In this document: piece by piece, positions 492 to 19,572 of the stretch
Layout: every line of letters begins with the position of its first letter
How positions within the stretch are numbered: position 1 is the stretch's first letter
IMG/VR virus record: IMGVR_UViG_3300032240_001388
Location: 1-21,734 of that record
Origin: a virus
Reading direction: 5' to 3' (one strand)
Length of the DNA stretch: 21,734 nt
Program-made: the position numbers and the translations under genes
Notes under the pieces: generated by a model
Database searches by the model: none
What the model was told of the DNA's origin: nothing
Seen by the model: only the letters and a program-made list of their open reading frames with translations

Positions 492-520
492 ATTCTGCTG
501 AGAATGCCTCACAACGTCAA
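492..520 (-). promoter_or_regulatory. Putative leftward early promoter of the xis-like gene
   Basis: On the minus strand, TTGACG (520-515) and CAGAAT (497-492) are separated by exactly 17 nt, a fair sigma-70/SigA-like match (5/6 and 4/6). It lies 75-100 bp upstream of the excisionase-like gene and points at it. Motif site 503-515 occupies the spacer, so a protein bound there would block RNA polymerase. Read by eye only. Confidence 0.4.
503..515 (+). promoter_or_regulatory. Dispersed operator-like motif, site A
   Basis: AATGCCTCACAAC fits the consensus RATGCCTCANNAC, shared with 16675-16687, 19542-19554 and 19560-19572 (minus). It lies between the -35 and -10 of the putative leftward promoter. 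Inferred to be a binding site for the adjacent repressor. Confidence 0.55.
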
Positions 521-544
521 CTCTGTTTGCAAAATGCTTGAACA

Positions 545-574
545 ATGTGTGTCACGGTGTGACTATGTGTGTCA
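545..574 (+). promoter_or_regulatory. Operator-like direct repeats between xis-like and repressor genes
   Basis: ATGTGTGTCA occurs at 545-554 and again at 565-574. The starts are 20 bp apart, about two helical turns, so both copies present the same DNA face. An inverted pair GTCAC-GGT-GTGAC (551-563) overlaps the first copy. A weak rightward -35-like TTGAAC lies at 538-543. This arrangement is typical of a lysogeny-switch operator; which protein binds is unknown. Confidence 0.5.
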
Positions 575-631
575 TGATGTTTGATATTCGCTGCTAGATA
601 GGCCTAGTGGCACAAGCACGGAGGATTGATA

Positions 632-1021
632 ATGACTCAAAAGGACATTCAGCTTTCTGAAGATGCAGCCAGAAAGCTCGGGGGAGCAATAGTCCGTCAT
701 CGCGTTGAACGTGGATACCGAAGCGCACGAAAGTTGGGTCTTGAGTCCAATTTGGATTACCGCACTATCACCTCACTTGAAAGTGCTCGCCGAGCCAGCG
801 TTTCAAGAAGCACGCTTGCTGTACTGGAGCTGTGCCTTGACCTTCCATCTGGCTACTTCCTCAGTCTTGTAGACGGGGATGACATGCCTGCAGACACCGT
901 CGAGCTTGATATTCCAGCTGGAGTCTCGGCTAGTGCGGTGCAGCAAGCTCGCGTAGTTGCCCAGGCTGCTTTTGAGGCAGCATTGCAGCAATTGAAAGCT
1001 GCCGGCCTTCAGAAGGCATAG
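632..1021 (+). CDS. XRE-type phage repressor (immunity repressor candidate)
   Basis: This 129-residue protein has an N-terminal XRE-like helix-turn-helix at about residues 10-70. The visible pattern is LGGAIVRHRVERGYRSARKL, then RTITSLESARR, then a Leu-rich helix and LPSGYFLSLVDG. This matches small actinobacterial and actinophage repressors that keep lytic genes silent. The C-terminus (about 85-129) is Ala/Gln-rich and probably helical, perhaps for dimerisation. ATG 632 is preceded by GGAGG at 620-624 with 7-nt spacing, better than the upstream TTG at 626. The gene is divergent from the excisionase-like gene and lies 117 nt before the att core. It is the best candidate to bind the RATGCCTCANNAC sites, though this is inference. 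Confidence 0.75.
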   Translation: MTQKDIQLSEDAARKLGGAIVRHRVERGYRSARKLGLESNLDYRTITSLESARRASVSRSTLAVLELCLDLPSGYFLSLVDGDDMPADTVELDIPAGVSASAVQQARVVAQAAFEAALQQLKAAGLQKA

Positions 1022-1057
1022 GCGTCTAACAGCACGCCAGTACCAGCCAGTCACACG

Positions 1058-1128
1058 GTGTTGCAGAGTGACACAGGTGGTCGAGAAAATGCGCCGAGAA
1101 AGTCGCATTTTGAGCCACTCTGCAACAC
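1058..1128. repeat. Nested inverted repeats beside att (terminator and/or integrase/Xis sites)
   Basis: A perfect 13-bp inverted repeat, GTGTTGCAGAGTG (1058-1070) and CACTCTGCAACAC (1116-1128), encloses a second perfect inverted repeat, AAAATGCG (1086-1093) and CGCATTTT (1104-1111) with a 10-nt loop. The inner hairpin ends in TTTT on the plus strand and could terminate repressor transcription. The outer arms end 10 bp before the tRNA-derived core, so they could also be recombination-protein sites. The structure is seen directly; its function is inferred. Confidence 0.6.
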
Positions 1129-1138
1129 TGGACTGGAT

Positions 1139-1183
1139 CTCATAATCTGGTCGTCGTCGGTTCGAGCCCGACCCGCCCCACCA
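1139..1183 (+). other. attP core: 3' part of a CAT-anticodon tRNA gene
   Basis: The sequence is the 3' half of a tRNA: anticodon loop CTCATAA (1139-1145, anticodon CAT at 1141-1143), anticodon-stem 3' strand TCTGG (1146-1150), variable loop TCGTC, T-stem GTCGG (1156-1160) and CCGAC (1168-1172) around loop TTCGAGC, acceptor strand CCGCCCC (1173-1179), discriminator A and CCA to 1183. The 5' half is missing: 1134-1138 (TGGAT) cannot pair with TCTGG and no GGGGCGG lies upstream. Tyrosine integrases commonly use such 3' halves as att cores. The stem is not the GGG/CCC type of initiator tRNA, so elongator tRNA-Met or tRNA-Ile2(CAT) is the likely host target. Confidence 0.85.
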
Positions 1184-1253
1184 AGAAAAGCCGTTGCAGG
1201 ACATAAGTAAAGGCCGCTGAACAATGACTAGTCGATAGAAATTTGGACGTCAT

Positions 1254-1285
1254 ATCTAACATTTCATCTAACAGGGAGTTAGATG
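1254..1285. repeat. ATCTAAC repeats and hairpin between att core and integrase side
   Basis: ATCTAAC occurs at 1254-1260 and 1266-1272 (12-bp step). CATCTAAC (1265-1272) is also inverted as GTTAGATG (1278-1285) with a 5-nt loop. The hairpin includes the stop codon of the 41-residue gene, so it could be a terminator or integrase arm-type sites. AGGGAGTTAG here (1273-1282) recurs at the end of the integrase gene (1913-1922). Confidence 0.4.
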
Positions 1286-1404
1286 CAACCATCCGGTAGC
1301 TCGAGAGTTGCGGAATCATTTTCTGGCTTGAGTGAGCCGCACTCGCGGCACACTTGCCAGTCGTAAATAGAACTTCCGTAGGTCCACTCATGGCTGTGAT
1401 TCAT
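1279..1404 (-). CDS. Small Cys/His protein, 41 residues
   Basis: A short frame from ATG 1404-1402 to TAA 1281-1279 encodes MNHSHEWTYGSSIYDWQVCR, then ECGSLK and an acidic tail ending DGCI. The His-x-Trp start followed by a CxxC pair (C19, C22) suggests a small zinc-ribbon-like fold, a common type of tiny phage protein. AGGAG lies 8 nt before the start, inside the end of the upstream gene, whose stop is 2 nt away. It is the last gene of the leftward block before att. No function can be named. Confidence 0.65.
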   Translation of the reverse strand: MNHSHEWTYGSSIYDWQVCRECGSLKPENDSATLELPDGCI

Positions 1405-1406
1405 GG

Positions 1407-1637
1407 CTAGTTCTCCTCCGCTCGGTGAGCAAGCGCAGCATCGACCAGTACGGAAGCCTTGCCCGCCACATGATTCCTATACACCCTGAAAAGGTGCAGG
1501 TTCTCGTTCGTCACCAGATTCCCATCCGGTGAACCCCGGTGCGCCTTCTGTATCCGAAGTTCCACCAGTTCACGCTTCATGCCAGCATCTATGGCACCCG
1601 TGATGATCGCGAACAGTTCCTCGTACTCGTTGCTCAT
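1407..1637 (-). CDS. Hypothetical protein, 76 residues
   Basis: The protein reads MSNEYEELFAIITGAIDAGM and goes on to a basic centre and a helical Ala-rich end AALAHRAEEN. No family is recognised. The start ATG at 1637 has a GAGGAG site 8 nt upstream that is part of the last codons of the previous gene. The same arrangement is repeated at its own 3' end, where GAG GAG AAC TAG serves as both stop and ribosome binding site for the next gene. This tight coupling supports a real gene. It belongs to a small-gene block between integrase and att. Confidence 0.6.
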   Translation of the reverse strand: MSNEYEELFAIITGAIDAGMKRELVELRIQKAHRGSPDGNLVTNENLHLFRVYRNHVAGKASVLVDAALAHRAEEN

Positions 1638-1639
1638 GG

Positions 1640-1879
1640 CTAGTTCTCCTCGTAGATTGAGTCGATCACATCGACGTATGCGTGCGTTGACTCAAGGCTG
1701 TTCAGACCGTCGTCATCTGCCAACCAAAACTCAACATTGCCGCCCTCGTAATCACGCTCAGTCCGGTATGCCTCAATCCGATGAAAGACCGGGTACTGAC
1801 CATCCTTCTTAGCCTCTGCGGCCATGCGCCAGGCCTCTTGCCCGGCGCTCTCATCTGTGTCGAACATTCCTCGGTACAT
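1640..1879 (-). CDS. Hypothetical protein, 79 residues
   Basis: The protein begins MYRGMFDTDESAGQEAWRMA and is acidic, with aromatic residues in its second half (EFWLADDDG, STHAYVDVIDSIY). It ends EEN like its downstream neighbour. An AAGGGG site lies 6 nt before ATG 1879. It sits 39 nt downstream of the integrase gene, in the same direction. No family is recognised. A plus-strand ATGCCTCA octamer falls inside it at 1768-1775 but lacks the flanks of the intergenic motif. Confidence 0.6.
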   Translation of the reverse strand: MYRGMFDTDESAGQEAWRMAAEAKKDGQYPVFHRIEAYRTERDYEGGNVEFWLADDDGLNSLESTHAYVDVIDSIYEEN

Positions 1880-1918
1880 TTTTTCCCCTTGTTTGTTCTG
1901 ATGGACTCATCAAGGGAG

Positions 1919-3079
1919 TTAGGGCTGCCCCGATGAAAGCCATTTAGCGTAGGTGTCAGCGGCCTCGTCTTGTTGTTTAGCGGTTACGTGTGCGTACACC
2001 TTGAATGTTGTTGTGACGTCTTTGTGACCTAATCGTTCTGCCACTACGTGCGCCGGCACGCCTGCTTCCAGCAGCAGCGTTGCGTGGGTATGACGAAGTG
2101 CGTGAGGTTTGATGTAGGTCACGTTGGCTTGCTCAATGATGGCTTTCCAGTACCGAGCCATGTTGGAAGGATTTAGTGGGCCACCGAACACGTTTGGGAA
2201 AACGTAATCGGCATCCAGCCATCGAGAGCCAGCTCGTAAACGATCCTCTTTTTGTTTAACTCTGTGTTCTTTCAGAAGGAGGACAGTCGCTGGGTCAATT
2301 GTGACGCGCTTAGACAAGCCACTCTTCAAACTGTGCTCAACCATGCCGCCGTGCACTTTGACCCTGTTGGTGTGGAAAGTAATCACCCCAATTTCTAGAT
2401 CAATGTCGCTCCAGCGAAGCCCCAACATTTCGCCTCGCCTAGCGCCTGTTGCTGACTGAACGACGAACATTCGACCATATCGATCTTGCCGAATAACGTT
2501 GATAAGTCTGCTCATTTCATCCGACGACCAGATTTTGGTTTCGGTGTGACGTGGCCGAGGAATAGCAATGTGTTCTGCTGGAGAATCTCCTCTGAGCCCG
2601 TATTCAGTCATGGCGTCTCGAAAAGCCTTCTTCAGCAATGTGCCTACGAATTCAACAGTACGTTTGCTTAAACCAGTCTTGTTAACCCCACCTTTTGTCA
2701 GTAGGTCGCTGTAGAAGCGCTTGATGTCAATTGGCTTGACTAGCTGTAGTTGCATCTGACCAAGAGTGTGATTACTTACGTATGAGATTTTTTCTTTGTA
2801 GGAATCAATTGTTGAGGGTTTTAGGTCTTTTGTTAGTGCGTGGGCGGGCAGCCATTCGCTCAAGTAGTCACTTACGGTGATCTTGTCTCGAGCTGCTGCC
2901 CGCCCTACGCGCAAATCTTGGCGGCGTTGGTCGCGCCATGCCAGGGCGGATTCTTCATCGTTGAAGCCGTAGGTTGTTCCTGCGTGCCATACGACTTTCT
3001 TCCGGCTTGGGTTGAGTGGGTCTGGTTCGCGCAATACGACGTAAACCCGGTCGCCTCTCCAATGAATTCCTTCTGGCAT
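1919..3079 (-). CDS. int: Tyrosine-family site-specific integrase
   Basis: This 386-residue integrase inserts the phage into the host chromosome at the tRNA att site and, with an excisionase, removes it. It has an N-terminal arm-binding region (about 1-65), a SAM-like core-binding domain (about 68-165, KITVSDYLSEWLPAH onward) and a C-terminal catalytic domain. Catalytic residues are visible: R214 in TGARRGE, K252 region in LKSGLSKR, H327/R330 in KPHALRHTHAT, H352 in RLGHKD and nucleophile Y362 in FKVYAHV. Length and order are standard for actinophage integrases and nothing appears truncated. It starts at ATG 3079 after an in-frame stop; the Shine-Dalgarno is weak. It lies about 735 bp from the att core. 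Confidence 0.95.
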   Translation of the reverse strand: MPEGIHWRGDRVYVVLREPDPLNPSRKKVVWHAGTTYGFNDEESALAWRDQRRQDLRVGRAAARDKITVSDYLSEWLPAHALTKDLKPSTIDSYKEKISYVSNHTLGQMQLQLVKPIDIKRFYSDLLTKGGVNKTGLSKRTVEFVGTLLKKAFRDAMTEYGLRGDSPAEHIAIPRPRHTETKIWSSDEMSRLINVIRQDRYGRMFVVQSATGARRGEMLGLRWSDIDLEIGVITFHTNRVKVHGGMVEHSLKSGLSKRVTIDPATVLLLKEHRVKQKEDRLRAGSRWLDADYVFPNVFGGPLNPSNMARYWKAIIEQANVTYIKPHALRHTHATLLLEAGVPAHVVAERLGHKDVTTTFKVYAHVTAKQQDEAADTYAKWLSSGQP

Positions 3080-3088
3080 GGCGTCAGG

Positions 3089-3337
3089 TTACCCAGCCAA
3101 GCGGGCTTTGGATATGAAATGTTCGTCAATGTGATTCATGACGATGTTTCTGTAATTGTTTAGAAGTGACGTTGCCCTGCAGTCATAGCAATATGTCCCT
3201 ATGGCAGGAGACGAGTTCCCGTAATCGGTATCACCCGTATAGTCAACGGATTCTCCAGCCCAGCAATCAGACGTGTTGATGGAGATATTGACTTCGATGG
3301 CTCTTACGCTGTTGCAGTCGGGGTTATGGCATTTCAT
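3089..3337 (-). CDS. Small zinc-ribbon-like protein, 82 residues
   Basis: The N-terminus reads MKCHNPDCNSVRAIEVNI, with C3 and C8, and a second pair lies in GTYCYDCRATS at about residues 48-55. A CxxxxC plus CxxC spacing like this suggests one zinc-binding ribbon. Between them is an acidic Ser/Asp/Gly-rich loop; the C-terminus is helical. The gene ends 10 nt before the integrase start and overlaps the upstream gene by 14 nt, consistent with co-transcription. Function unknown; small zinc ribbons in phages often bind nucleic acid or host proteins. Confidence 0.6.
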   Translation of the reverse strand: MKCHNPDCNSVRAIEVNISINTSDCWAGESVDYTGDTDYGNSSPAIGTYCYDCRATSLLNNYRNIVMNHIDEHFISKARLAG

Positions 3338-3581
3338 GGGCGGCCGCCTTTGCGCAAATATTGATGCAATCAGCCATGAGTTCCACGACGCTTTCGACGC
3401 TAATCATGGAGCCGTCCATGGACGTTCGCGCTAAGTCAGCTGCTTCTGATTGAAGCCAGCTAGTTCCATGGGTAAAGACGCGCTCTTTAGCGTTGACGCG
3501 TTCCATGTCGACAATGCCCTGACTCAAGGTTTTGACGATCTGGTTAGCTGACTCTTCCGTAATTAGCTCTTCTGCAATCAC
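3324..3581 (-). CDS. Hypothetical helical protein, 85 residues
   Basis: A predicted all-helical acidic protein with Ala/Glu/Ile-rich segments (EELITEESANQIVKTLSQ, VESVVELMADCINICAKAAA). It starts at GTG 3581, with AAGGAG about 9 nt upstream, and overlaps the following zinc-ribbon gene by 14 nt. No family is recognised. Support comes from the ribosome binding site, frame length and operon context. A 28-nt gap separates it from the HNH gene; that gap carries a 13-bp near-palindrome GATTAAATTAATC (3603-3615). Confidence 0.55.
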   Translation of the reverse strand: MIAEELITEESANQIVKTLSQGIVDMERVNAKERVFTHGTSWLQSEAADLARTSMDGSMISVESVVELMADCINICAKAAAHEMP

Positions 3582-3609
3582 TTAACTGGTCTCCTTTGTC
3601 TTGATTAAA

Positions 3610-3876
3610 TTAATCCCAACTGTGGATTAGCCATCCGCGTTTTTGAGCCTCCTCGGGCTCTCGGGTAATGAGGTCATGACAAGGACGGCACAGACACACC
3701 AGATTGGTTTCGTCAGTAATGGAACCGCCCCTTGCTCGACTTTTTCGCTCATGCACATCAACTGAGCGTTGTTTCCAGCATCGCTGACAAATGGGATGCT
3801 GGGTCAGCAACCGTACAACTAAGGGAATGCGTTCCTTGTCGTAGATTCGTTGCCTCTTGGCGCTGCGATATTTCAC
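3610..3876 (-). CDS. HNH endonuclease, small
   Basis: From GTG 3876 this is an 88-residue HNH nuclease. Visible motifs are the zinc knuckle pair C30xxC33 (PICQRCW), the catalytic DVHE (D40, H42), the N58 region (SITDETNLVCLC) and C63xxC66-H67 (CRPCHDLI). This is the classic ββα-metal fold. Small HNH proteins of this kind often work with terminase in phage packaging, although they usually sit beside the terminase; here it is 14 kb away on the other strand. The GTG overlaps the upstream stop (GTGA) and has AAGG 6 nt before it, so I prefer it to the longer GTG start at 3918. Homing-type activity or a role in replication or host DNA degradation cannot be excluded. Confidence 0.85.
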   Translation of the reverse strand: MKYRSAKRQRIYDKERIPLVVRLLTQHPICQRCWKQRSVDVHERKSRARGGSITDETNLVCLCRPCHDLITREPEEAQKRGWLIHSWD

Positions 3877-4127
3877 ATAGCACCTTCGGGAACCATGTAC
3901 GTTGCCCTGCGGACGCACGCATCACACAGCTCTCTTTCGGTCCATGAGTCTTTCCACACATGACCGGTTGGCACCAAGCACTCATCGCAGTACACGATGT
4001 CAAGGCCGCTTGCTTGCGACGCGTGCTCGCTCATCGCACTGTTCTGATCGTTGATGCACGGGCCGCCCCTGTGTTTGCGTTGGTCACAATGCAGACACCG
4101 GTCTTCGTAGTTGTACGCGTGGGGCAT
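3873..4127 (-). CDS. Cys-rich small protein with two putative zinc knuckles
   Basis: This 84-residue protein has Cys/His pairs at CLHCDQRKH (C11, C14) with GGPC (C23), then YCDEC (C47, C50) and ELCDAC (C67, C70). This spacing fits one or two zinc-binding knuckles. AAGGA lies 5 nt before ATG 4127, a strong start signal. Its first 97 nt overlap the 3' end of the upstream secreted-protein gene in another frame, an unusually long overlap. Its stop overlaps the HNH start. No family is recognised; its position next to the HNH nuclease may be functional or incidental. Confidence 0.6.
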   Translation of the reverse strand: MPHAYNYEDRCLHCDQRKHRGGPCINDQNSAMSEHASQASGLDIVYCDECLVPTGHVWKDSWTERELCDACVRRATYMVPEGAM

Positions 4128-4816
4128 GTCTTTCCTTTGTTAGGTGTCGGTCGACTAAGTGCTGGTGTGGGGTTATTTGTGATGCGGCCGGTTGTAACTA
4201 CAGGGATGGTGGGAGTTGGCTCAGGTGATGCAGACGGCTCCAGAGTTACTGTTGGCGTTGGTGTTGGTGTAGGTGCTGGGCATGCTGCTACGCATGTGGG
4301 CCTGTTATTTGCGTCTGGGTACGCCAAGGGAATTTCAAGAGTTGTTCCGTTTGCTCCTGGCATGGTCCATTGGCCTGAGGTGAAGTTGTAAGAGCCACCT
4401 GAGTAGCCCGCAACGTTTCCTACGCCATTCGCCGATCGTGCTGCCTCAGCAGGATCTTGAAGTGTTTGCAAAACAACACGCATGCCAGCAAACCAGCCGC
4501 TGCCGCACACTTCGGGCGTGCACACAATCACTCCGCCTGTTTGACGGCCAGTAGTGGGATCAACAATTGCCCAACCGCCATGCTCGCCGGGTGACATTCC
4601 TGGCGCGTAAGTAGCGGACGGTGCAGGTGTCGGCGTTGGCCGTGGAGTTGCTACTGGAGTAGGTGTCGGCGATGGTGAAGGTGCCGTTGATGCGCTTACC
4701 GACGGTGTTGGGGTGGATACCGGGTCTGCTGAGCTGACAGCAGCGTTTGATACGGCAACAAGTGATGCAATTGCGGTGAACGCTGCTGTGGTGGTGGCAA
4801 TGATTGTTTTCTTCAT
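4031..4816 (-). CDS. Secreted Pro/Thr/Ser-rich protein
   Basis: The protein (261 residues from ATG 4816) has a typical signal peptide: MKKTIIATTTAAFTAIASLV followed by an Ala-rich cleavage region. After it comes a low-complexity Pro/Thr/Ser linker (about 34-68), then a compact domain of roughly 120 residues (GGWAIVDPTTGRQTGGVIVC, CTPEVCGSG, GNVAGYSGGSYNF, GQWTMPGANGTTLEIPLAYP). A second Pro/Thr linker (APTPTPTPTV) and a basic Thr-rich tail follow. Cys pairs in the exported domain suggest disulfides. I do not recognise the domain. An exported phage protein expressed with the leftward genes could alter the lysogen surface or aid lysis; this is inference. AGGGG lies about 9 nt upstream. The 3' end overlaps the next gene by 97 nt. 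Confidence 0.65.
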   Translation of the reverse strand: MKKTIIATTTAAFTAIASLVAVSNAAVSSADPVSTPTPSVSASTAPSPSPTPTPVATPRPTPTPAPSATYAPGMSPGEHGGWAIVDPTTGRQTGGVIVCTPEVCGSGWFAGMRVVLQTLQDPAEAARSANGVGNVAGYSGGSYNFTSGQWTMPGANGTTLEIPLAYPDANNRPTCVAACPAPTPTPTPTVTLEPSASPEPTPTIPVVTTGRITNNPTPALSRPTPNKGKTCPTRTTTKTGVCIVTNANTGAARASTIRTVR

Positions 4817-4830
4817 GTGGTTTTTCCCCT

Positions 4831-5181
4831 CTAACTCCACTGTCCGGTTGGTTCTGCCATGAATTGGACGCGTTGTCCTGCGGCGGTCGTACGCAGGATT
4901 TCCATTTGATCGCGCAAAGTTCTCAAGCGCTCTTTGATTGCTCGCACTTTGGCGTCGCTTAGTTCACGATCTCGCAGAGACAATATGGTTTCGTCGTCTG
5001 CCGTGTATCTACGCAAGTCCATGGAACCGGTTGCGTCCAAGAAGGCGCGAGCGTATGCCTTGATGTACTCAACCTTGGCTTCCACTGATTCGTTGTCCGC
5101 TAACGCCAAATCGTCTGTTGCTGTGTCTAATAGACGACTGACGTCAGCAAGTTGGGTGAGCGTTTGCTCTAGTGAATTCAT
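4831..5181 (-). CDS. Hypothetical coiled-coil protein, 116 residues
   Basis: An all-helical charged protein (LEQTLTQLADVSRLLDTATD, AKVEYIKAYARAFLDATGSM, DAKVRAIKERLRTLRDQMEI) with heptad-like Leu spacing, ending in AEPTGQWS. Proteins of this size and style are common in actinophage early regions and are usually left unnamed. The start ATG 5181 has GGAG in GGAGACCAG about 7-8 nt upstream. It lies between the lysin gene and the secreted-protein gene with short gaps. Function unknown. Confidence 0.65.
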   Translation of the reverse strand: MNSLEQTLTQLADVSRLLDTATDDLALADNESVEAKVEYIKAYARAFLDATGSMDLRRYTADDETILSLRDRELSDAKVRAIKERLRTLRDQMEILRTTAAGQRVQFMAEPTGQWS

Positions 5182-5190
5182 CTGGTCTCC

Positions 5191-5655
5191 TTACGGCGTG
5201 CATGTCCACCGGCCCCCAGCCCAATGGCGTGCACCTGAATTTTTTCCATTCCAATTAAGCACCGTGGCAAAAGCCATGTGCTGATAGAAAGGTCCCCATT
5301 TCTGCATTGGGGTCTTTCGAAGAGTCACAGCAATGTCGTGACCTGTCGTCTTGCCAAACATGGTTATTAGCTCAGGTTCGATCATCCACGACGCACCTTT
5401 CGTCAGTGCGTAAGAGAATTGGAAGCCACCTGCGTAGCCGCCTGATCTGTTTGTAGAAAACCAATGGTTGTTGGATTCTCTTTTCAATACACATAACGTG
5501 AATTCGCGTTGACCTGGTAGTGCGTACTTGCCGTTGTAGAGCAAGACAGGCGCGCTCATCTCTGGCGCAGACTTCGACATGGTGATTGCCGGAGGTGCTG
5601 GAAGGGACGGGGTTGTAATGCTCAACATCAAGCCAATGGCAAGTACAGGGATCAT
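5191..5655 (-). CDS. Secreted lysozyme/Rpf-like peptidoglycan hydrolase (lysin candidate)
   Basis: A 154-residue protein with an N-terminal hydrophobic segment (MIPVLAIGLMLSITTPSLPA), probably a signal peptide or signal anchor. It is followed by a transglycosylase-like domain: CVLKRESNNHWFSTN (candidate catalytic E60), GGYAGGFQFSY and a C-terminal ARHWAGGRWTC. The E-S-N ... G-x-x-G-G-x-F-Q-F pattern is that of the lysozyme-like/resuscitation-promoting-factor superfamily, which cuts the glycan strand. C55 and C152 could form the usual disulfide. GGGAGG stands 4 nt before ATG 5655, so this start beats the longer frame. No holin is obvious next to it. It could serve host lysis or cell-wall passage; assignment to Rpf versus another lysozyme clan member is uncertain. 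Confidence 0.7.
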   Translation of the reverse strand: MIPVLAIGLMLSITTPSLPAPPAITMSKSAPEMSAPVLLYNGKYALPGQREFTLCVLKRESNNHWFSTNRSGGYAGGFQFSYALTKGASWMIEPELITMFGKTTGHDIAVTLRKTPMQKWGPFYQHMAFATVLNWNGKNSGARHWAGGRWTCTP

Positions 5656-5677
5656 GAGACCTCCCTTAACGCAGTTC

Positions 5678-5700
5678 GTGGTGTTGACCAACACACCACC
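5678..5700. repeat. Short inverted repeat upstream of the lysin gene
   Basis: GTGTTG (5681-5686) and CAACAC (5689-5694) are inverted, with GTG/CCAC flanks allowing a bulge. The pair lies in the 71-nt gap before the lysin start and could form a hairpin or bind a dimeric regulator. Weak evidence. Confidence 0.25.
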
Positions 5701-5726
5701 GGAATATTCAGTTGTGATGTGGTTAT

Positions 5727-6958: not shown

Positions 6959-6959
6959 G

Positions 6960-12095: not shown

Positions 12096-12105
12096 GGCTT
12101 GTGTG

Positions 12106-13506
12106 CTAGGCCGCGGCTGAGTTCATAAACTCCAGCAGCGCGTCCTCGTGCTCGGTTGCCAAAGCGATGAGCTCGTCCTTCTTTGCCGTGGGGGCGACCT
12201 TCACCCCAATGGCTGTGAGCATTTTCTTCAGACGAGCAGGAACTTCCTCGCTCCAGTCGTGACCGTCGGATCCACTGTCGGAGGAGGCCACTGCTTCCTC
12301 GAACTCGGTGATGGCCTCGTCATCTTCTTCGACGCTGACGTCGTCGTCTTCGGGTTCTGCCTGATGGGGGTTGAACATGATGTCCGTTACCCCATCAAGT
12401 GAGTTGACCCATGCCTCGACTTCGGCGCGCTTGTTTTCTGCCCAGTCTTGAAGATTGATGGGATCGGGCAGCGGGATTGGTTCGCCGATCTCGTCATCAG
12501 CATGAAAGGCAAGGTTTCCGTCTTGGAATGAACCGGAAATCTTCAAAGTCCACCGTCGACCAGCGGGTGAATAGTCCTTGTTCTTCTTGCGGTCGCGCTC
12601 CATAAGACGCTTCCAGTCCTCGTACCACGAGGTAGCCATTCCCAGAAGGATGTGGTCACCTGGCTTGGGGTTGTAATTTGCCTTGTCACCTTCATGGAGT
12701 TGTCCTTCAATGAAGACGCAGTTGACGTAAGTGACGTCCTTGGGCTTGGTGTGCTTGGGGGGTTCCCAATCATCCGGTGCTTTGAAAGGCTTTTTACACT
12801 CGTACTTGCTAGGTGCAAGCCGCTGCAGAAGGGGATCAGTTGCGTACTGGCGCTTCATTGATCCGTCGCGACCACGAACGATCACGAAGTCGGACACAGG
12901 AAACACCACAAGTCGACCGGGGAGATCTACGGGCTCCTTCTCACCGGCAATACGTACGCCTCCGAAGGCCTTGACCTCGCGAATGGACGCCCAGCCGCCA
13001 TCAGCAGAAGACGTCTTGTAGTCCGTCAAGGGAATGACGGTAATGGGCTTGCCTGCAGCGAGTCGGACGACGCGTACCTTGCTGGCACGGTCTGACTCCC
13101 AGCCACCAGCACCCTGCTCTGTTACCTCGTCAGGAATGGTGAACCTACTCATGTCATCTTCTTTCTTCGTAATGTGTGTTTGGGTTGGTATGAGGTACCC
13201 GGCTTGTGTCGGGAACTGAATGAACCCTCCGACCGTTACCCCTTCGTGTGTTGTCGTGTTGATGACGTGGGCTGTGAAAGCCCGTTCTGTGTCCTTCTCA
13301 ATGACGCGTTTGGCTACGTCACGTGCGATGTAGCCGACGGTGTCTCCGTTTTCTTTAGTGACCTTCAACGCGTTTGCGTCGTACGCGTTGTCGGGTTCGT
13401 GTTCGACCAGCAGTTGCTGGCCTATTTCGAGGTCGCGGACTGCGTCGGCGTACACCGATACGCCAACGAGTTTGGTTTGCAGCCCGCGAATGCTGCTAGT
13501 TGTCAT
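12106..13506 (-). CDS. HIRAN-domain protein fused to a replication-associated (possibly ssDNA-binding) region
   Basis: The 466-residue product starts with a HIRAN domain (about 10-100): LVGVSVYADAV, the EPDNAYDANALKV block and GYIARDVAKRV. HIRAN domains bind 3' ends of ssDNA. After residue 119 comes a second region (SRFTIPDEVTEQGAGGWESD, FVIVRGRDGSMKRQYATD, CVFIEGQLHEG, RRWTLKISGSFQDGNLAF), β-rich and of unknown family. Then follow a strongly acidic tail (about 375-405) and a short helical end. An acidic tail and operon position between primase and polymerase suggest an SSB-like role; this is inference. ATG 13152 inside the gene has a GAAAGAAGA site in front, so a shorter second product is possible. 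ATG 13506 overlaps the upstream gene by 11 nt. Confidence 0.7.
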   Translation of the reverse strand: MTTSSIRGLQTKLVGVSVYADAVRDLEIGQQLLVEHEPDNAYDANALKVTKENGDTVGYIARDVAKRVIEKDTERAFTAHVINTTTHEGVTVGGFIQFPTQAGYLIPTQTHITKKEDDMSRFTIPDEVTEQGAGGWESDRASKVRVVRLAAGKPITVIPLTDYKTSSADGGWASIREVKAFGGVRIAGEKEPVDLPGRLVVFPVSDFVIVRGRDGSMKRQYATDPLLQRLAPSKYECKKPFKAPDDWEPPKHTKPKDVTYVNCVFIEGQLHEGDKANYNPKPGDHILLGMATSWYEDWKRLMERDRKKNKDYSPAGRRWTLKISGSFQDGNLAFHADDEIGEPIPLPDPINLQDWAENKRAEVEAWVNSLDGVTDIMFNPHQAEPEDDDVSVEEDDEAITEFEEAVASSDSGSDGHDWSEEVPARLKKMLTAIGVKVAPTAKKDELIALATEHEDALLEFMNSAAA

Positions 13507-13936
13507 CACTAGGTGCGTTTATGCTGCGTGACTTAAACCGCAGGCTCGGCGAACTGGACTTGTAAGACAGCGCCTTGGCTGCCTGTTTGCCTGGACCAAA
13601 CATCCCAAACTCAATCAACTGATTGAGGGCTTCACGGTCAACGACCGTCTTGGTGGATGACACCAGTTCATACACCTTGGGGTCCAGCTCTTGAAGGGCA
13701 TCCAAGTTGACTTCGGCTGTTGTGGGGCGTACGACCGTAACGGTCATGACGTCTGTTCCCTGCTGCCAAAAGGCCGTGTGCTTGACGCGGTCGGCAATCC
13801 ACCGAGTGATGTCTTTGCGTTCAGCTTCAAGGGATTTGATTTGGGCATCCAGTTGCACCCAGCGGTCCATCTCCAAGCGGATGGCGTCGAGTTCTTCCTG
13901 CGTGTACAGCTCTTCACTGATGGTTTCGGTACTCAC
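13496..13936 (-). CDS. Hypothetical coiled-coil protein, 146 residues
   Basis: Residues about 10-50 form a helical coiled coil (LYTQEELDAIRLEMDRWVQL, IKSLEAERKDITRWIADRV). A β segment (DVMTVTVVRPTTAEVNLDAL), a second helical part and a basic Ser-rich tail (SSSPSLRFKSRS) follow. GTG 13936 has AAGGAG 5 nt upstream, an excellent start. It sits between primase and the HIRAN gene, so a role in replication is likely, but no family is recognised. Its end overlaps the HIRAN gene. Confidence 0.7.
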   Translation of the reverse strand: MSTETISEELYTQEELDAIRLEMDRWVQLDAQIKSLEAERKDITRWIADRVKHTAFWQQGTDVMTVTVVRPTTAEVNLDALQELDPKVYELVSSTKTVVDREALNQLIEFGMFGPGKQAAKALSYKSSSPSLRFKSRSINAPSDDN

Positions 13937-13948
13937 GGGTTCTCCTTG

Positions 13949-14776
13949 TTAGTGGGCGTATTTGCTGTACCCGTTGGCGGCCAGATGTGCTGACAGGCCT
14001 TGCACGGCCTGCCCGTCTGGCACGTCTCCGGGGTCTTTCCCTCCGATACTGCCCCAGAGGTATGACAAAGAATGCGTCAAAGTACCTAATAGGTCGCTTG
14101 AGCGACCCATTGCGGCACGGCCTGCATCATCATCATCAAAGGCTAGGACGATTACGGAGGGGTTGAGTCGTCGAAGAATGTCGACTTGTGGGGAGTGGAT
14201 TCCGGCTCCGTAGCAGCCCAAGACTGTCCAGGATTCTGGATGGTCGTGGAGGGCCATGACGTCTCCGGCTCCCTCTACCAGCACGACTACGGGGCGGGGT
14301 GTGATGTGCCCGAAGAACGTGGCTGATGTTCGCGATCCGTACGGATAGCGATATTTGGGGTTGGCGTCCGGGTCACGGACAACAACGCCATTAATCCGTC
14401 CAACTGCGTCCCGAAGCGGGTAGGTCGGGAAACCTGTGACGGGGTGGGTTCCGCATCTGTAATGGGACGCCACATCTGTGCCGTATCTGGCCGACCAGTA
14501 AGGACTGGGTTCGTGGGAGTCGAATAGGTCCAGCCATGATTCCGGATACGTTCGAACAACTGTTTCTCCTTTAAGAGCGTTAATGAGGTCGTCAAGGTCA
14601 GGGGCGACGTCTTTACTGTCGACTTGTCCTGCTGCCCCGCATGCGTAACACACCCACACTTTGGATACGACGTTTACCGAAGCCGAAGCGTTGGTGTCTT
14701 CGTGGACATGGCATTTGAAAGGGCGTTCAACGCCTCTTCCTGTGTTAAGTGCTTCCTCAAGGGTGTGTGACTTCAC
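13949..14776 (-). CDS. DnaG-like primase with zinc finger and TOPRIM domain
   Basis: A 275-residue primase. The N-terminal CHC2-type zinc site is C22-x-x-H25 (FKCHVHEDTNAS) with C43-x-x-C46 (WVCYACGAAG). The TOPRIM domain shows E169 (VVVLVEGAGDVMAL) and the DDDD run at 214-217 (VLAFDDDDAGRA). Between them is a short RNA-polymerase-like segment (TGFPTYPLRDAVGRINGVVV). It makes primers for the DnaE-type polymerase; the helicase-interaction domain of cellular DnaG is absent, normal for short phage primases. It starts at GTG 14776 overlapping the upstream stop (GTGA), hence coupled translation. Gene order helicase, small genes, primase, polymerase makes a compact replication module. Confidence 0.92.
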   Translation of the reverse strand: MKSHTLEEALNTGRGVERPFKCHVHEDTNASASVNVVSKVWVCYACGAAGQVDSKDVAPDLDDLINALKGETVVRTYPESWLDLFDSHEPSPYWSARYGTDVASHYRCGTHPVTGFPTYPLRDAVGRINGVVVRDPDANPKYRYPYGSRTSATFFGHITPRPVVVLVEGAGDVMALHDHPESWTVLGCYGAGIHSPQVDILRRLNPSVIVLAFDDDDAGRAAMGRSSDLLGTLTHSLSYLWGSIGGKDPGDVPDGQAVQGLSAHLAANGYSKYAH

Positions 14777-15135
14777 GACTTGGGTGTCAACGAGCCGTCA
14801 GCCAAAGCTTCCGCCAGGGTCTTGCCTACTGCTCTGGGCAGCTTTGTTTGCTTCGGCACAGGCTCGGGCTCAGGTTCCAAATCGAGGTCATCCCACGCGT
14901 CAGCAAATTCACCATCCCCGATGTACTCGTAGTTGACGTACTCCTGGTTGAGGTGCTCTGTTGCGGCAAGAAGCGCTGAACACGCAATTATTAGTTCTTC
15001 AATATCTTCCTTGAGCATAGAAGTCTTTGCGCCATCTGAATTTTTCAGAATTTGCAACGAAAATGCGTCTCCATCATGACCAAGGACCACTTTGTCGCTC
15101 GTGTAACCCACGTGAATCATGCAATTAATATTCAC
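14773..15135 (-). CDS. Hypothetical acidic protein, 120 residues
   Basis: From GTG 15135 the protein begins MNINCMIHVGYTSDKVVLGH, a β-rich N-terminus, then a helix (LKEDIEELIIACSALLAATE), then an acidic Pro-containing linker (DDLDLEPEPEPVPKQ) and a short basic helix. AGGAG lies 5 nt before this GTG, and the upstream stop is 2 nt away, so I prefer it to longer starts inside the previous gene. The form is like other small actinophage replication-region proteins; function unknown. It ends in GTGA overlap with primase. Confidence 0.65.
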   Translation of the reverse strand: MNINCMIHVGYTSDKVVLGHDGDAFSLQILKNSDGAKTSMLKEDIEELIIACSALLAATEHLNQEYVNYEYIGDGEFADAWDDLDLEPEPEPVPKQTKLPRAVGKTLAEALADGSLTPKS

Positions 15136-15137
15136 TC

Positions 15138-15323
15138 TTACTCCTTTTCTGTCTGCCATTGACTTGGTAGGAAACCGCCTTTGGACAGCCATTCGTCCAA
15201 AGCGGCAAGGTGTTCAATAAGTTCGATCACGTTGTCGTAATCAATCAGGGAGTGCGTGTCCAGATCGTTTTGGACTTTCTCTAACGCTGTTCTGACGTTG
15301 TGTAATGCGACATCAGGGTCCAT
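15138..15323 (-). CDS. Hypothetical helical protein, 61 residues
   Basis: The protein reads MDPDVALHNVRTALEKVQND, then VIELIEHLAALDEWLSKGGF, and ends LPSQWQTEKE. Two helices and the terminal LDEWLSKGGFLP-W pattern are typical of small conserved actinophage proteins near replication genes. It starts 4 nt after the helicase stop and ends 2 nt before the next start. Function unknown. Confidence 0.7.
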   Translation of the reverse strand: MDPDVALHNVRTALEKVQNDLDTHSLIDYDNVIELIEHLAALDEWLSKGGFLPSQWQTEKE

Positions 15324-15327
15324 GAGT

Positions 15328-16596
15328 TCAGCCTTCGTCTTGGGCAATGTCTTGCTCAATGAGCTCAAATGCCTTATCTCGGTCGATTTCTCCAAACTTC
15401 CCGTTGGCCGGGTCGAGGATGACGTGCCATCTACGGCCGGCATTTCCGTGCCTGTTTTTGGCCAGATTGCACATCAGTACGCGGCGGGATTCCCGACGCA
15501 TCGTGATCACTACGTCCGCGTCACGACCTAACTGGTCGGATTCAGCCAAATGTTCGGCTCCAGGGGCCTTTTCTGAGTTGGCTCCTGCGCGGTTGATTTG
15601 TGCAGCAGAAATGATGGGAATGGAATGGGCAAGGGCTGTTTGCTTCAGTTCCTTGCTAATTCCTGCCGCGGACTGCCAATGCTCGGCATTACGTGACATC
15701 GAAGCGGTCGGCTTCATGAGGGTCGCGTAATCGATCACGGTGATGGTTTCTGGGGCGTGACAGGCAGCAATCTCAGTAGCGTCCAAAGGCCCGTAAGAAG
15801 GGTCTCTGATGTAGATCGATCCGTTGGTTTGCTGCCATTCGTTGAGACGTTCCATCCGCTCATCGTTGGGAAGTTGATGGAAGTTCGGAACGTCCCTTAG
15901 GGCGATGCGATGTAACCGGTCAGCGACTTCTTCTTCGGTCATTTCAAGGCTGAAGAAGTTCACGTTCCAGCCTGCTTCGGCTGCTGCGACAGCCATTTGT
16001 TGCAGGATCCACGATTTGCCCACGCTGAGGCGGGCTGCCACGAACCACAAGTTTCCGGGCCTGATGCCGCCCGTGATTTGTTCTAGTGAGTCGCTGTGGT
16101 TAAGGCAGACGGGCGCGGGTTGAAAGTCCATGCTCGCGCGCGTGTCGATCTCTGAGAAAGACCGCCCCATTTTGGCTCGTGGGGTGGAGGTGCGGATGAC
16201 TTCGTTGAGTTCCGCGAGGGCCTTGTGGTAGTCGTCTTCACCAAGGTGCCTGATGGCTGAAAGCATTCCGCTTCGCATGTTTCGGGTCATGGTGTCGATG
16301 GACAGTTGTTCGGCCGTCCAGCTGAGATATCCGTCGTCGACTTGCGGCTCATGGGTGTAGGGGAAGGAAGGGAATCTGCTGGTGATCATCTGCGCCGTGG
16401 GCGATTTGCCGGCGTGTGTTTGGTAGTCGGTGCAGAAGGTGTGGACTTGCTGCCAGGACGTGAAGTGCCTGTCGGAGATTCCGTGTTTTGAGGGCACATA
16501 GGTGCCTGAGTCGATGAGGGCCGAGATGTAGATGGCCTCCGGGGATAGTTCGTTGGGCTGCCGGGAGGCCATGTCGTAGATGTTTGCTGTGCTCAT
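15328..16596 (-). CDS. dnaB: DnaB-like replicative helicase
   Basis: This 422-residue protein unwinds DNA at the phage fork. It has a small N-terminal domain (about 1-140) and a RecA-like ATPase domain. Visible motifs: Walker A AARLSVGKSW (188-195, with Ala for the first Gly), FFSLEMTEEEVADRL (DnaB motif 1a), Walker B ITVIDYATLM (D289), and the QINRAG and ADVVITMRRE segments near the end (motifs 3 and 4). The N-terminal domain is shorter and diverged from bacterial DnaB, usual for phage. ATG 16596 has AAGGAG 5 nt upstream. It is the first gene of the leftward replication operon and diverges from the 17243 gene; motif site B lies 79 nt upstream. Confidence 0.92.
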   Translation of the reverse strand: MSTANIYDMASRQPNELSPEAIYISALIDSGTYVPSKHGISDRHFTSWQQVHTFCTDYQTHAGKSPTAQMITSRFPSFPYTHEPQVDDGYLSWTAEQLSIDTMTRNMRSGMLSAIRHLGEDDYHKALAELNEVIRTSTPRAKMGRSFSEIDTRASMDFQPAPVCLNHSDSLEQITGGIRPGNLWFVAARLSVGKSWILQQMAVAAAEAGWNVNFFSLEMTEEEVADRLHRIALRDVPNFHQLPNDERMERLNEWQQTNGSIYIRDPSYGPLDATEIAACHAPETITVIDYATLMKPTASMSRNAEHWQSAAGISKELKQTALAHSIPIISAAQINRAGANSEKAPGAEHLAESDQLGRDADVVITMRRESRRVLMCNLAKNRHGNAGRRWHVILDPANGKFGEIDRDKAFELIEQDIAQDEG

Positions 16597-16674
16597 GTGG
16601 TCTCCTTGATCCGGCTTATGTGGATCTGCATGCTGTTTCTAAGTGGACCCCCATCCTGTACCGAGACGTATCAG

Positions 16675-16687
16675 AATGCCTCATTAC
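16675..16687 (+). promoter_or_regulatory. Dispersed operator-like motif, site B
   Basis: AATGCCTCATTAC matches RATGCCTCANNAC. Eleven bases, AGAATGCCTCA, are identical to site A at 501-511. It is 79 nt upstream of dnaB, where a repressor could stop leftward replication transcripts. Confidence 0.55.
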
Positions 16688-16747
16688 CGGGTAACGATTC
16701 GGGATCGAGGACATAACAAAGCCCCGGGGGGTAACCAGGGGGTACGT

Positions 16748-16759
16748 GTCACGCGTGAC
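16748..16759. repeat. 12-bp perfect palindrome
   Basis: GTCACGCGTGAC is a perfect palindrome, inside a wider GTGTC...GACAC arrangement. GTCAC/GTGAC half-sites also occur at 551-563. A dimeric regulator could bind it. Confidence 0.5.
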
Positions 16760-16768
16760 GGGACACGC

Positions 16769-16804
16769 AATAAACCCAATAACCCCAATGAACCCAACAA
16801 ACCC
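16769..16804 (+). repeat. Four tandem 9-bp repeats (iteron-like)
   Basis: Units are AATAAACCC, AATAACCCC, AATGAACCC and AACAAACCC, directly abutting. All keep AA at positions 1-2, A at 5 and CCC at 7-9. Short tandem iterons beside a helicase gene are typical of initiator-binding sites, but no initiator other than the helicase and primase is recognised. Confidence 0.55.
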
Positions 16805-17054
16805 TCTAAGGCAGGGGTTGGTTAGGAGGTTTAAAAGATTTGCTCAAGACATAAAAAGAGCTGTTACAGGCTTTTGAAGGAAGGCATACGTTCCCCCTCC
16901 CCAGATAGAAGCAATACTAGACCAAAACAGTTGCAGAATGCAACACAAAGTTCACCAAAGACACAACACTAAGACACCGTGATACCACCAGAAACAAACT
17001 GCACTTGACAACCCCAGTAGACTTCCGTAGCGAAGGCTGAACAAGCCGGCATGC

Positions 17055-17140
17055 AAACAACCAGAAACAAACACCACACACCAACATAAAAAACACCCAC
17101 CCCACCACCAACCACAAACACACCACCCCCAACACACCAC
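17055..17140 (+). other. 86-nt tract of almost only A and C
   Basis: Within these 86 bases I count one G (17064) and one T (17087); all others are A or C. The bias continues less strictly to about 17220. It lies just upstream of the first rightward gene. On RNA such a stretch cannot fold, so it may be an open 5' leader; as DNA it may be an origin strand. Confidence 0.6.
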
Positions 17141-17242
17141 GCCAGACAGCCGAGCTACTAACAAACAACCCCCAACACACTCACAAAAACACACCGAAAC
17201 ACCTGATACCAAAAAGACGCAAAATGTGTCACCATGTAGCAC

Positions 17243-17533
17243 ATGGACAGATGGGAACAGGCCTACCTGGCCTACCACTCACAAAACCCGCAAGTGTTTA
17301 CGTACCTTGAGAAGCTCATACGTGAACTAAGAAACGCAGGCATCACCAAAACCGGTATGAGCCTGTTGTTTGGCCGTCTCAGATGGGACATGGCCCTCTC
17401 CACGAACAAGATCGACGATTTCAAAATCAACGAGAACTTGTCGTGCCTGTATGCCCGAGAACTCATCAAAGCCCACCCCGAATGGGAAGGCATGTTTGAA
17501 CTCAGGGCCCGCCGCACTAAGGAGGCAGCATGA
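17243..17533 (+). CDS. Conserved-looking hypothetical protein, 96 residues
   Basis: The first rightward gene encodes a helical protein: MDRWEQAYLAYHSQNPQVFT, then LIRELRNAGITKTGMSLLFG, LRWDMALSTN, INENLSCLYARELIKAHPEW and FELRARRTKEAA. The pattern (Y-H-x-x-N-P near the start, L-R-W, Y-A-R-x-x-x-x-x-P, F-x-x-R) resembles a widespread phage/bacterial hypothetical family; I know no firm function. No Shine-Dalgarno precedes ATG 17243, so translation may start from a leaderless transcript or the unstructured A/C leader. It overlaps the next gene by ATGA. Confidence 0.75.
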   Translation: MDRWEQAYLAYHSQNPQVFTYLEKLIRELRNAGITKTGMSLLFGRLRWDMALSTNKIDDFKINENLSCLYARELIKAHPEWEGMFELRARRTKEAA

Positions 17534-17793
17534 GTATTTACGAAATCCCTGCACCGCCTGTCAATGAGATTCCTCAGGTTCCTGCTATCGACTACTCCCG
17601 GGCTGTTGTCCCGTTGGAGTGGTACGAGGACGTTAAGAGTTGGGCGTACATGAAAGGCCGTCAAGACGCTGCTGAAGCGTGGCTTACTTTTGTCAGCACC
17701 CACACGTGTTTTGAGGACGATGAGATGCTTCAGGTCCTTCGTGGCTCAGCAAACACCGTCAGCCAGTGTGTGAGCGTGGAGCCGGGGCTGTGA
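17530..17793 (+). CDS. Hypothetical protein, 87 residues
   Basis: Begins MSIYEIPAPPVNEIPQVPAI, a Pro-rich N-terminus, followed by a helical domain (LEWYEDVKSWAYMKGRQDAA, EAWLTFVSTH) and an acidic segment FEDDEMLQVL. An AAGGAGG site inside the end of the previous gene precedes ATG 17530, and the stop/start overlap is ATGA. Position just upstream of the terminase gene suggests a packaging or regulatory accessory gene. No family recognised. Confidence 0.65.
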   Translation: MSIYEIPAPPVNEIPQVPAIDYSRAVVPLEWYEDVKSWAYMKGRQDAAEAWLTFVSTHTCFEDDEMLQVLRGSANTVSQCVSVEPGL

Positions 17794-17891
17794 AGCAATT
17801 TCTTGGTCGATGGAAGAAGGACAAGAAGACTGGCGATCTTGTGTGGCGTTGGAAACTGCGTAAAGCCAAGCGATACAAGGTTGACTCGTGA
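17790..17891 (+). CDS. Tiny basic protein, 33 residues
   Basis: GTG 17790 overlaps the upstream stop (GTGA) and the frame runs to TGA 17889-17891, encoding a very Lys/Arg/Trp-rich peptide (VKQFLGRWKKDKKTGDLVWR, then WKLRKAKRYKVDS). The next gene starts in the same way by a GTGA overlap. The chain of three coupled starts makes this plausible though short. Its charge suggests nucleic-acid or membrane-surface binding. Confidence 0.5.
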   Translation: MKQFLGRWKKDKKTGDLVWRWKLRKAKRYKVDS

Positions 17892-18010
17892 GCCGCTGGC
17901 CATATCAAAACGGATATACCAGCGGTTACCGCGATGGCGTCATTATCGGCGGGATTATGGGTTTTCTTGCCGGTGGCGCCATGGTGGCCATCGTTTTGCT
18001 GGTTTTCTAG
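17888..18010 (+). CDS. Tiny one-helix membrane protein, 40 residues
   Basis: GTG 17888 to TAG 18010 encodes MSRWPYQNGYTSGYRDGVII followed by GGIMGFLAGGAMVAIVLLVF. The second half is one clean transmembrane helix with Gly/Ala small-xxx-small spacing suited to helix packing. It could be a holin-like or accessory membrane peptide, but a single helix cannot prove that. It lies between the basic peptide and the terminase gene, whose ATG follows the stop directly. Confidence 0.55.
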   Translation: MSRWPYQNGYTSGYRDGVIIGGIMGFLAGGAMVAIVLLVF

Positions 18011-19543
18011 ATGACAGAGATCTTGCTGGACGAGAACGAAAATCGGGTTTACCCCAGGCTTCATTTGCCGCGGCCTCCTCAAGACAAGGAGGAACTGTGG
18101 TGGGTGGTTAAGCGTTTGTGGGGCGTGGAAATTCCTCGGGTGAAAGTGTGCCCTGATCACGTAGCACCGTTCGACGCGTTCGCTGAGGGCTATTTCGGCA
18201 ATCAGTCGAACTGGGCTTTGTGGTACGGATCTCGAGGTACAGGTAAATCACTCATGCTGGCATTGCTGGCGTTGACGAAGGCTGCCGTGCTGGAGATCAA
18301 CGTGGCATTGCTGGGTGGCTCCATGGCGCAGTCTCAGAACGTGCAAGAGCACATTGAGAATTTGCTGTTGTTTCCTGCTGCCCCGGTGTATGCGGTGGCG
18401 TCTCAGATTCAGACCCAGATCACTTTTACGGGCGGTAATTGGATTAGGCCGTTGCCGGCGTCTCAAAAGACTGTTCGTGGCCCTCACCCGCAGATGACGG
18501 CTTTGGATGAGATCGATGAGATGGAACGCAAGGTGTATGACGCTGCCATGGGGCAGGCGATGGCCAAACCCAATGCACGGGGGATTGTGATCCCGGAAAT
18601 GGTGGTGGCCTCGTCAACGTGGCAGAACCCCGTGGGGACGTTTCAGTCAGTGCGTGACGAGGCGTTGAGTAAGGGCCTGCCGGTACGGACGTGGTGTTTT
18701 CGTGAAGTGCTAAAAACCGATGACAATCCTTCGGGTTGGATGGACCCGGCGTTCATTGAACGTAAGAGGGCTTCGGTTCCTGCTGAATTGTTTCGCGTGG
18801 AGTATGAGCTGGGTGAGCCTGCTGGCGGATCGCGGGCGTTCGATCTGGAGAAACTCAATAAGTGCTTTGTTGATATGGACACAGTTGATGAGCGGCATGC
18901 CGGTAACGACGACCTGTGGGTGTTCGAGGAGCCTCGTAGTGATGCCTGGTATGCGGTGGGGGCTGACTGGGCTAAGGAAAAGGACAAGACGGTCATTGTG
19001 GTGGCCCGTACGGATGTGAAGCCTCACAGGATTGTGTATTTGAGGCGGGTAAATAAGCGTCCGTGGCCGGAAATGGCTGACATGTTCAATGACGTACTGA
19101 ATTCATATCAGGCTGTGGCAGCTCATGACGGCACAGGTATCGGCAACGTGGTCAATGACTTGATCGATGAACGTGCCCGCAAGATCCTCATGATTGGACG
19201 TGCTCGAACCCAATTGCTGGTGGAGTACATCTCGGCTGTGGAAAACGGCGAGTATCTTCTGCCGTCAAATACGCCTGCATTTGACTCCCACAAGGGGACA
19301 ACAGTGGAAGAGGTGTATGCCCCTGGCCGGTGGAATTCCCATTTGGCTGACGACGTGGCTGCTTTCGCGATCATGCACAATGCGGCTTCAAAGCAGCCTC
19401 CTCCTGCGGGTATGGAGGGAGTTAAGAAGTCTCCGATGAGGTTTGTGAAGATCCCGGACGCTTCGGAGGCGTTTTATGACACTTCTATTTCGGGAGAAGT
19501 TTCCGTTCAGTCTGAAGGTGACAACCCCTATCTTGTGACGTGA
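18011..19543 (+). CDS. terL: Terminase large subunit (packaging ATPase-nuclease)
   Basis: This 510-residue protein drives DNA into the prohead and cuts the concatemer. The ATPase domain has Walker A GSRGTGKS (73-80) in ALWYGSRGTGKSLML and Walker B MTALDEIDEM (D166, E167); SSTWQNPVGT (201-210) fits the coupling motif. The C-terminal RNase-H-like nuclease shows D319 (VGADWAKEKDKT), D373 (AAHDGTGIGN) and D447/D448 (HLADDVAAF). Length is normal for phage TerL. The ATG directly follows the previous stop. The next genes are tail-fibre-like, not portal and capsid, which departs from the usual order. Two inverted copies of the 13-bp motif follow its stop codon. Confidence 0.95.
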   Translation: MTEILLDENENRVYPRLHLPRPPQDKEELWWVVKRLWGVEIPRVKVCPDHVAPFDAFAEGYFGNQSNWALWYGSRGTGKSLMLALLALTKAAVLEINVALLGGSMAQSQNVQEHIENLLLFPAAPVYAVASQIQTQITFTGGNWIRPLPASQKTVRGPHPQMTALDEIDEMERKVYDAAMGQAMAKPNARGIVIPEMVVASSTWQNPVGTFQSVRDEALSKGLPVRTWCFREVLKTDDNPSGWMDPAFIERKRASVPAELFRVEYELGEPAGGSRAFDLEKLNKCFVDMDTVDERHAGNDDLWVFEEPRSDAWYAVGADWAKEKDKTVIVVARTDVKPHRIVYLRRVNKRPWPEMADMFNDVLNSYQAVAAHDGTGIGNVVNDLIDERARKILMIGRARTQLLVEYISAVENGEYLLPSNTPAFDSHKGTTVEEVYAPGRWNSHLADDVAAFAIMHNAASKQPPPAGMEGVKKSPMRFVKIPDASEAFYDTSISGEVSVQSEGDNPYLVT

Positions 19544-19572
19544 TGCCTCAGAACGCCTAGTATTGAGGCATC
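19542..19572. promoter_or_regulatory. Inverted pair of the 13-bp motif after terL (sites C and D)
   Basis: GATGCCTCAGAAC (19542-19554, plus) and GATGCCTCAATAC (19572-19560, minus) both fit RATGCCTCANNAC and face each other 5 nt apart. They also form a 9-bp hairpin (19542-19550 with 19564-19572, 13-nt loop) overlapping the terL stop. No T-tract follows. Either a weak terminator or, more likely given sites A and B, a paired operator before the virion genes. Confidence 0.6.

Follow-up and report, generated by a model that had tools for sequence, protein, structure and literature searches.

Paired 8-bp half-sites dispersed over predicted promoters of a temperate phage genome and its relatives: candidate operators of a lysogeny repressor

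Results

The data presented here support well the existence, in a group of temperate phages, of a dispersed, promoter-associated regulatory system whose sites are tied to the temperate lifestyle. We propose, with a probability of roughly 60%, that these sites are operators and that the lysogeny repressor encoded at 632-1021 of the window (the whole stretch of viral DNA analysed, 21,734 bp long) reads them, shutting early, replication and late promoters.

Four copies of a 13-bp sequence in the window and in its parent genome

The window is an IMG/VR fragment, near-identical to the complete genome G001, which has 70,449 bp and a terminal repeat of 123 bp. The first-pass annotation had reported four copies of the 13-mer RATGCCTCANNAC, all extragenic or at a stop codon, and had considered them too rare for chance. 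Both statements were confirmed: the window contains exactly four copies, non-genic or on the terL stop codon, and none was found in 100 dinucleotide-preserving shuffles. Coordinates and strands are as follows.

503..515, plus strand: site A, 13-mer with half-site ATGCCTCA at 504-511, located within the spacer of the predicted leftward promoter of the HTH_17 gene; copy also present in G001
16675..16687, plus strand: site B, 13-mer with half-site ATGCCTCA at 16676-16683, upstream of dnaB
19542..19554, plus strand: site C, half-site ATGCCTCA at 19543-19550, overlapping the terL stop codon
19560..19572, minus strand: site D, inverted half-site TGAGGCAT at 19564-19571

The scan of the full genome proposed with the motif returned the 13-mer at the same four places only. 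When up to two mismatches were allowed, 14 matches were counted versus 11.4 expected, with no excess of near-copies. That the relaxed sequence stood merely at background suggested that the wrong unit had been chosen, and the exact 13-mer was rejected as such.

The unit is an 8-bp half-site arranged in helically phased pairs

Listing the word TGCCTCA in G001 and its relatives revealed non-coding near-copies with a partner either one helical turn away or inverted. The 8-bp half-site ATGYNTCA, rather than the 13-bp sequence put forward at first, forms the true unit, and additional half-sites are found in the window close to those listed above.

548..554, plus strand: half-site TGTGTCA, upstream of the repressor gene
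568..574, plus strand: half-site TGTGTCA, 20 bp from the copy at 548, upstream of the repressor gene
16666..16673, plus strand: degenerate half-site ACGTATCA that partners the one of site B at a distance of 10 bp, read from the sequence
19574..19581, minus strand: degenerate half-site TGAATCAT, the third of this group, 10 bp past site D

A pair was defined as two copies of ATGCCTCA that together carry no more than two mismatches, at an offset of 10 bp for direct and of 20 or 21 bp for inverted copies. The temperate genomes G001, G005 and G006 together contain 16 non-coding and 2 coding pairs, against a non-coding mean of 0.08 and a maximum of 6, reached by a shifted version of the same word, for 999 column-permuted half-sites; this permutation figure is not a strict probability, because the offsets were picked after viewing the same genomes, the controls being the shuffled words and the integrase-less genomes. 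The three integrase-less relatives contain one pair altogether. A chance or base-composition artefact was a legitimate concern for a motif defined post hoc, as the 13-mer was chosen after reading and its relaxed form is at background; the independent tests on permuted half-sites and on related genomes argue against it, and the excess of non-coding pairs over all 999 permuted words refutes it. In addition, the spectrum of offsets peaks at 10 and 30 bp for direct and at 20-21 and 30 bp for inverted copies, as expected if the bound protein contacts a single face of the DNA.

The shorter word TGYNTCA gave a consistent picture of many dispersed sites enriched in non-coding DNA. Specifically, its non-coding occurrences in G001, G005 and G006 amount to 76 versus 21.5 expected, the top value among 700 permutations, and to 27 versus 10.2 in G001 alone. 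The word stays close to background in G018, G021 and G022, which lack an integrase (23 versus 18.5 expected), and is not enriched in G013 (10 versus 8.2). Gene calls were home-made, and all enrichment tests share one home-made gene mask, applied alike to the permuted controls.

Other words were also inspected. AACAGGT, in non-coding excess in G013, G014, G005 and G006, was dismissed by eye as a second dispersed motif since its copies have no shared context and some of them form a tandem array in G006. TGAACA, a candidate substitute half-site in G013, forms two inverted pairs with the right spacing, and its overall enrichment is weak (10 versus 7.0). The same genome (L110-L113) carries a repeated gene-start leader, with GTGTGGTTACGGG on the opposite strand, which resembles start-associated sequences, and GTGTGGTT occurs there eight times in non-coding and once in coding DNA. 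GGAGACC and GAGACCA show strong non-coding enrichment in G005 and G006 (L021-L028) and in G002 (L019-L020), probably reflecting a shared ribosome-binding leader. A pattern search of all viral contigs with the inverted composite matched near-identical relatives of the window; elsewhere in these contigs it returned only single chance-like matches, in unrelated and mostly AT-rich contigs. A triple tandem adjoins the integrase gene of G040, a genome otherwise unrelated.

The sites lie at predicted promoters and are conserved in temperate relatives

The genes and promoter-like elements around sites A to D are the following.

492..520 (read 520-492), minus strand: predicted leftward promoter-like pair TTGACG-17-CAGAAT, pointing at the HTH_17 gene
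15328..16596, minus strand: DnaB-like replicative helicase, downstream of site B (phrog_19, E 7e-51)
18011..19543, plus strand: terminase large subunit, terL (phrog_2, E 1.8e-19)
19558..19563, plus strand: -10-like TAGTAT of a predicted late promoter, between sites C and D, with a -35-like GTGACG at 19535-19540
19596..19904, plus strand: first virion-side gene, downstream of sites C and D

The placement described in the first-pass annotation was borne out at each site. Site A falls between the -35 and the -10, within the 17-bp spacer of a promoter-like pair that is weak taken alone, as 0.4 are expected in shuffles; only one promoter of the window passes a consensus scan, a point against the proposed reading. 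Site B lies upstream of dnaB, accompanied by the degenerate half-site 10 bp away. Sites C and D form an inverted pair between terL and the virion genes, flanking TAGTAT, whose position agrees with that of TAGNCT in the relatives and at which the automatic promoter scan made no call. The composite sites are found 30-105 bp upstream of gene starts, the promoters being predicted rather than mapped.

Conservation in related phages, suggested as a check on the motif, was likewise observed: temperate relatives with as little as about 43% protein identity again carry sites upstream of dnaB, downstream of terL and ahead of a virion-side gene. As G005 and G006 are close to each other, the independent lineages number about three, which weighs against the reading. 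Upstream of the orthologous dnaB genes, G005 shows TGAGACATTC-N10-TGATGCA, G006 shows TGAGACATTC-N10-TGAGACA and G002 a degenerate TGAAACATTTTGATTCAT; no site was marked in the dnaB upstream regions of G013, G018, G021 and G022. At the post-terL position, a degenerate copy is seen in G002, whereas the variants of G005 and G006 run into TAGACT. Further composites occur in G001 at 16763-16783, 17330-17340 and 37722-37732, among rightward virion-side genes. The composite at 37722-37732 has a counterpart at the orthologous gene of G005 and G006, absent at that gene in G013, G018, G021 and G022. The dispersed sites are therefore found at the predicted promoter regions of several gene groups, namely the switch, dnaB, the post-terL position and the virion genes.

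The half-sites accompany the lysogeny module

Matches to a profile of the repressor-like protein and a phage integrase were found in the same 6 of 31 records, and neither in the other 25; as the six were found via the repressor, the informative part is the 25 others lacking both genes, some of which are fragments. In relatives outside the six, the post-terL promoter TTGCRM-N17-TAGNCT is kept in eight of the nine loci inspected, with a half-site in just one of the nine stretches. A plain promoter kept without half-sites suggests that these were added to a promoter already functional and do not belong to it.

These observations bear on whether the half-sites could be activator sites, through which a phage or host regulator would turn on the late and replication promoters. 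Some composites do abut or replace the -35 region next to a conserved TAGNCT -10. However, the half-sites occur in both orientations and at varied distances from the -10, integrase-less relatives keep the full promoter without them, and sites are present at the lysogeny switch too, so that we regard activation as quite improbable. Taken together, the site pairs, their promoter-proximal placement, their conservation and their restriction to temperate relatives support the dispersed regulatory system postulated in the first-pass annotation.

The candidate reader is a small protein with a predicted XRE fold

Two regulators are encoded divergently at the left end of the window.

632..1021, plus strand: repressor-like protein of 129 aa with a predicted XRE fold, candidate reader (predicted structure, homologs)
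151..393, minus strand: HTH_17 protein, excisionase/Cox-like, rival reader (Pfam PF12728, E 5.9e-11)

The 632-1021 protein matched nothing in PHROG and nothing credible in Pfam, and four of its homologs matched none of the Pfam HTH families at E values up to 5. Its model is a five-helix XRE fold (pLDDT 81.5) with XRE controllers as top PDB matches (E about 2e-3), which supports the XRE assignment made earlier. The nearest solved folds include C.Esp1396I, Rhodococcus and Mycobacterium XRE regulators and SinR. C.Esp1396I and SinR share the predicted five-helix fold, but they differ from the phage protein in sequence (about 22% identity over about 75 residues), in its extra C-terminal helix at residues 100-123 and in their biology. 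Beyond the XRE domain and this one C-terminal helix, no second DNA-binding domain is predicted. A DYRTIT helix is invariant in six homologs.

A search for families present in the motif-bearing G005 and G006 and absent from G018 and G021 left only two recognisable transcription regulators, the 632-1021 type and the divergent HTH_17 protein, next to the integrase and several members with no assigned function. The small HTH_17 protein might be the reader, acting on tandem direct repeats about 10 bp apart as a lytic-side switch of many promoters. Such tandem repeats, about one helical turn apart, resemble the sites of lambda Xis and P2 Cox, where an HTH_17-type gene is likewise found at the switch. 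Besides lying divergent from the repressor gene, the HTH_17 gene has relatives in G002, G005, G006 and G014, its relative in the motif-less G013 is much weaker and strongly diverged, and tandem copies lie near attP in G005, G006 and G014. On the other hand, G022 has an HTH_17 relative and neither repressor, integrase nor motif enrichment; inverted pairs at 20-21 bp are atypical of Xis, and the spread of sites over replication and late promoters is unlike the Xis and Cox systems, late-promoter control being unusual for an excisionase.

Two facts count against the repressor as reader. Its homolog in G013 has the same DYRTIT helix and is 61% identical to that of G014, yet the G013 genome shows no motif enrichment; moreover, the HTH_17 gene has nearly the same distribution. 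Having weighed both, we favour the repressor at the probability stated at the outset and consider the HTH_17 protein, its main rival, an unlikely reader.

The integration region and the phage family

Between the repressor gene and the integrase gene lies a probable attachment site.

1134..1183, plus strand: probable attP core, the 3' part of a tRNA gene (tRNA read by eye), between repressor and integrase
1919..3079, minus strand: tyrosine integrase (phrog_1, E 3.2e-68; PF00589 in G001)

The 1134-1183 segment is 88% identical to non-coding DNA of mycobacteriophages ThetaBob and Demsculpinboyz, and ARAGORN detected no whole tRNA. This attP-like match gives a weak indication of an actinobacterial host. 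The TerL family (L036-L109) comprises at least 274 viral contigs; the terminase had no tblastn match at E 1e-5 among 50,697 GenBank phages, and a TerL search of bacterial genomes returned six loci in MAGs of mixed phyla, uninformative on the host. No prophage with the repressor was found in a search of bacterial genomes.

Tandems of TGCGTCA, TGCTTCA or ATGCCTCA, spaced 10-11 bp, lie by the integrase gene or attP (L114 at 129 and 380, L024 at about 2411, L025 at about 8466, L180 at about 1860). The tandems close to attP or to the integrase end in G005 (62411), G006 (8466) and G014 (129 and 380) could be arm sites for integrase or excisionase instead of operators. In the window, an inverted repeat at 1058-1128 (GTGTTGCAGAGTGACACA / TGAGCCACTCTGCAACAC), between repressor and attP, could be a terminator or integrase arm sites, and the protein encoded at 12106-13509, on the replication arm, contains a HIRAN domain and, towards its C terminus, a weak match to an Arc-like repressor. 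One IMG/VR record of 135,953 bp (L044, L049) has two terL genes, and so probably represents two joined phages or a concatemer.

Discussion

Cluster A stoperators, the analogy initially drawn for these sites, are single asymmetric sites of 13 bp. Most of them share one orientation and most lie away from promoters, and the repressor that binds them is monomeric, has two DNA-binding domains and, in L5, counts 183 residues (PMC9283540, PMC6550527). If the present sites were stoperators of this type, they would be repressor sites oriented along transcription and acting mainly by stopping elongation. The likeness to L5, Bxb1 and TipsytheTRex is real in that many short repressor-type sites occupy non-coding DNA genome-wide, at the switch and beyond it, in a temperate genome encoding a repressor. 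In contrast, the sites described here are paired 8-bp half-sites in composites at predicted promoters, with no orientation bias (20 along and 21 against transcription in G001, G005 and G006), and the candidate reader has 129 aa and a single predicted XRE domain. The analogy fails on the form of the site, on orientation and on the repressor; the system is outside the cluster A stoperator family, and a stoperator mode of action is very improbable.

Phage P1 has 22 dispersed C1 operators, each an asymmetric 17-bp ATTGCTCTAATAAATTT (PMC8546580). This is the closest functional parallel, with dispersed operators for one lysogeny repressor, a role that is inferred in our case; here too a lysogeny module goes with the sites, as judged from the co-occurrence of repressor and integrase. 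The two differ in half-site sequence and in the pairing seen here, and the parallel is one of function. Phage-wide operators are already known from P1 and L5; what would be new is the sequence of the sites, their geometry and the repressor.

The following mechanism would account for the operator role of the sites. In the lysogen, the XRE-fold repressor would cooperatively occupy half-sites which, on one helix face, lie across or directly beside core elements of the switch, dnaB and several late promoters. Once bound, it would block the start of transcription, directly silencing early, replication and late genes, and would also regulate its own promoter. Half-sites located at the core promoter in either orientation agree with initiation being blocked sterically rather than with an activator of fixed geometry. 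We infer the repressor as the binder, repression through binding and cooperativity; with the repressor as reader, one protein would silence all three classes of promoters.

To our knowledge, the lysogeny repressors studied in depth mostly target early promoters, and direct dispersed control is found in few phages, such as cluster A and P1. In this context, the phages studied here may represent an undescribed lysogeny circuit of an uncultured family, a proposal whose odds we consider even: one small regulator would read helically phased 8-bp half-sites in every major promoter class, late promoters included, silencing the whole virus, with sites present in temperate and absent from integrase-less members. 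If true, this would be an independent case of dispersed control that reaches late promoters, and it would differ from the known ones in its repressor and in the sequence and geometry of its sites. The integrase-less relatives, which have the same promoter without the sites, provide a natural control that would make the operator set predictable and testable.
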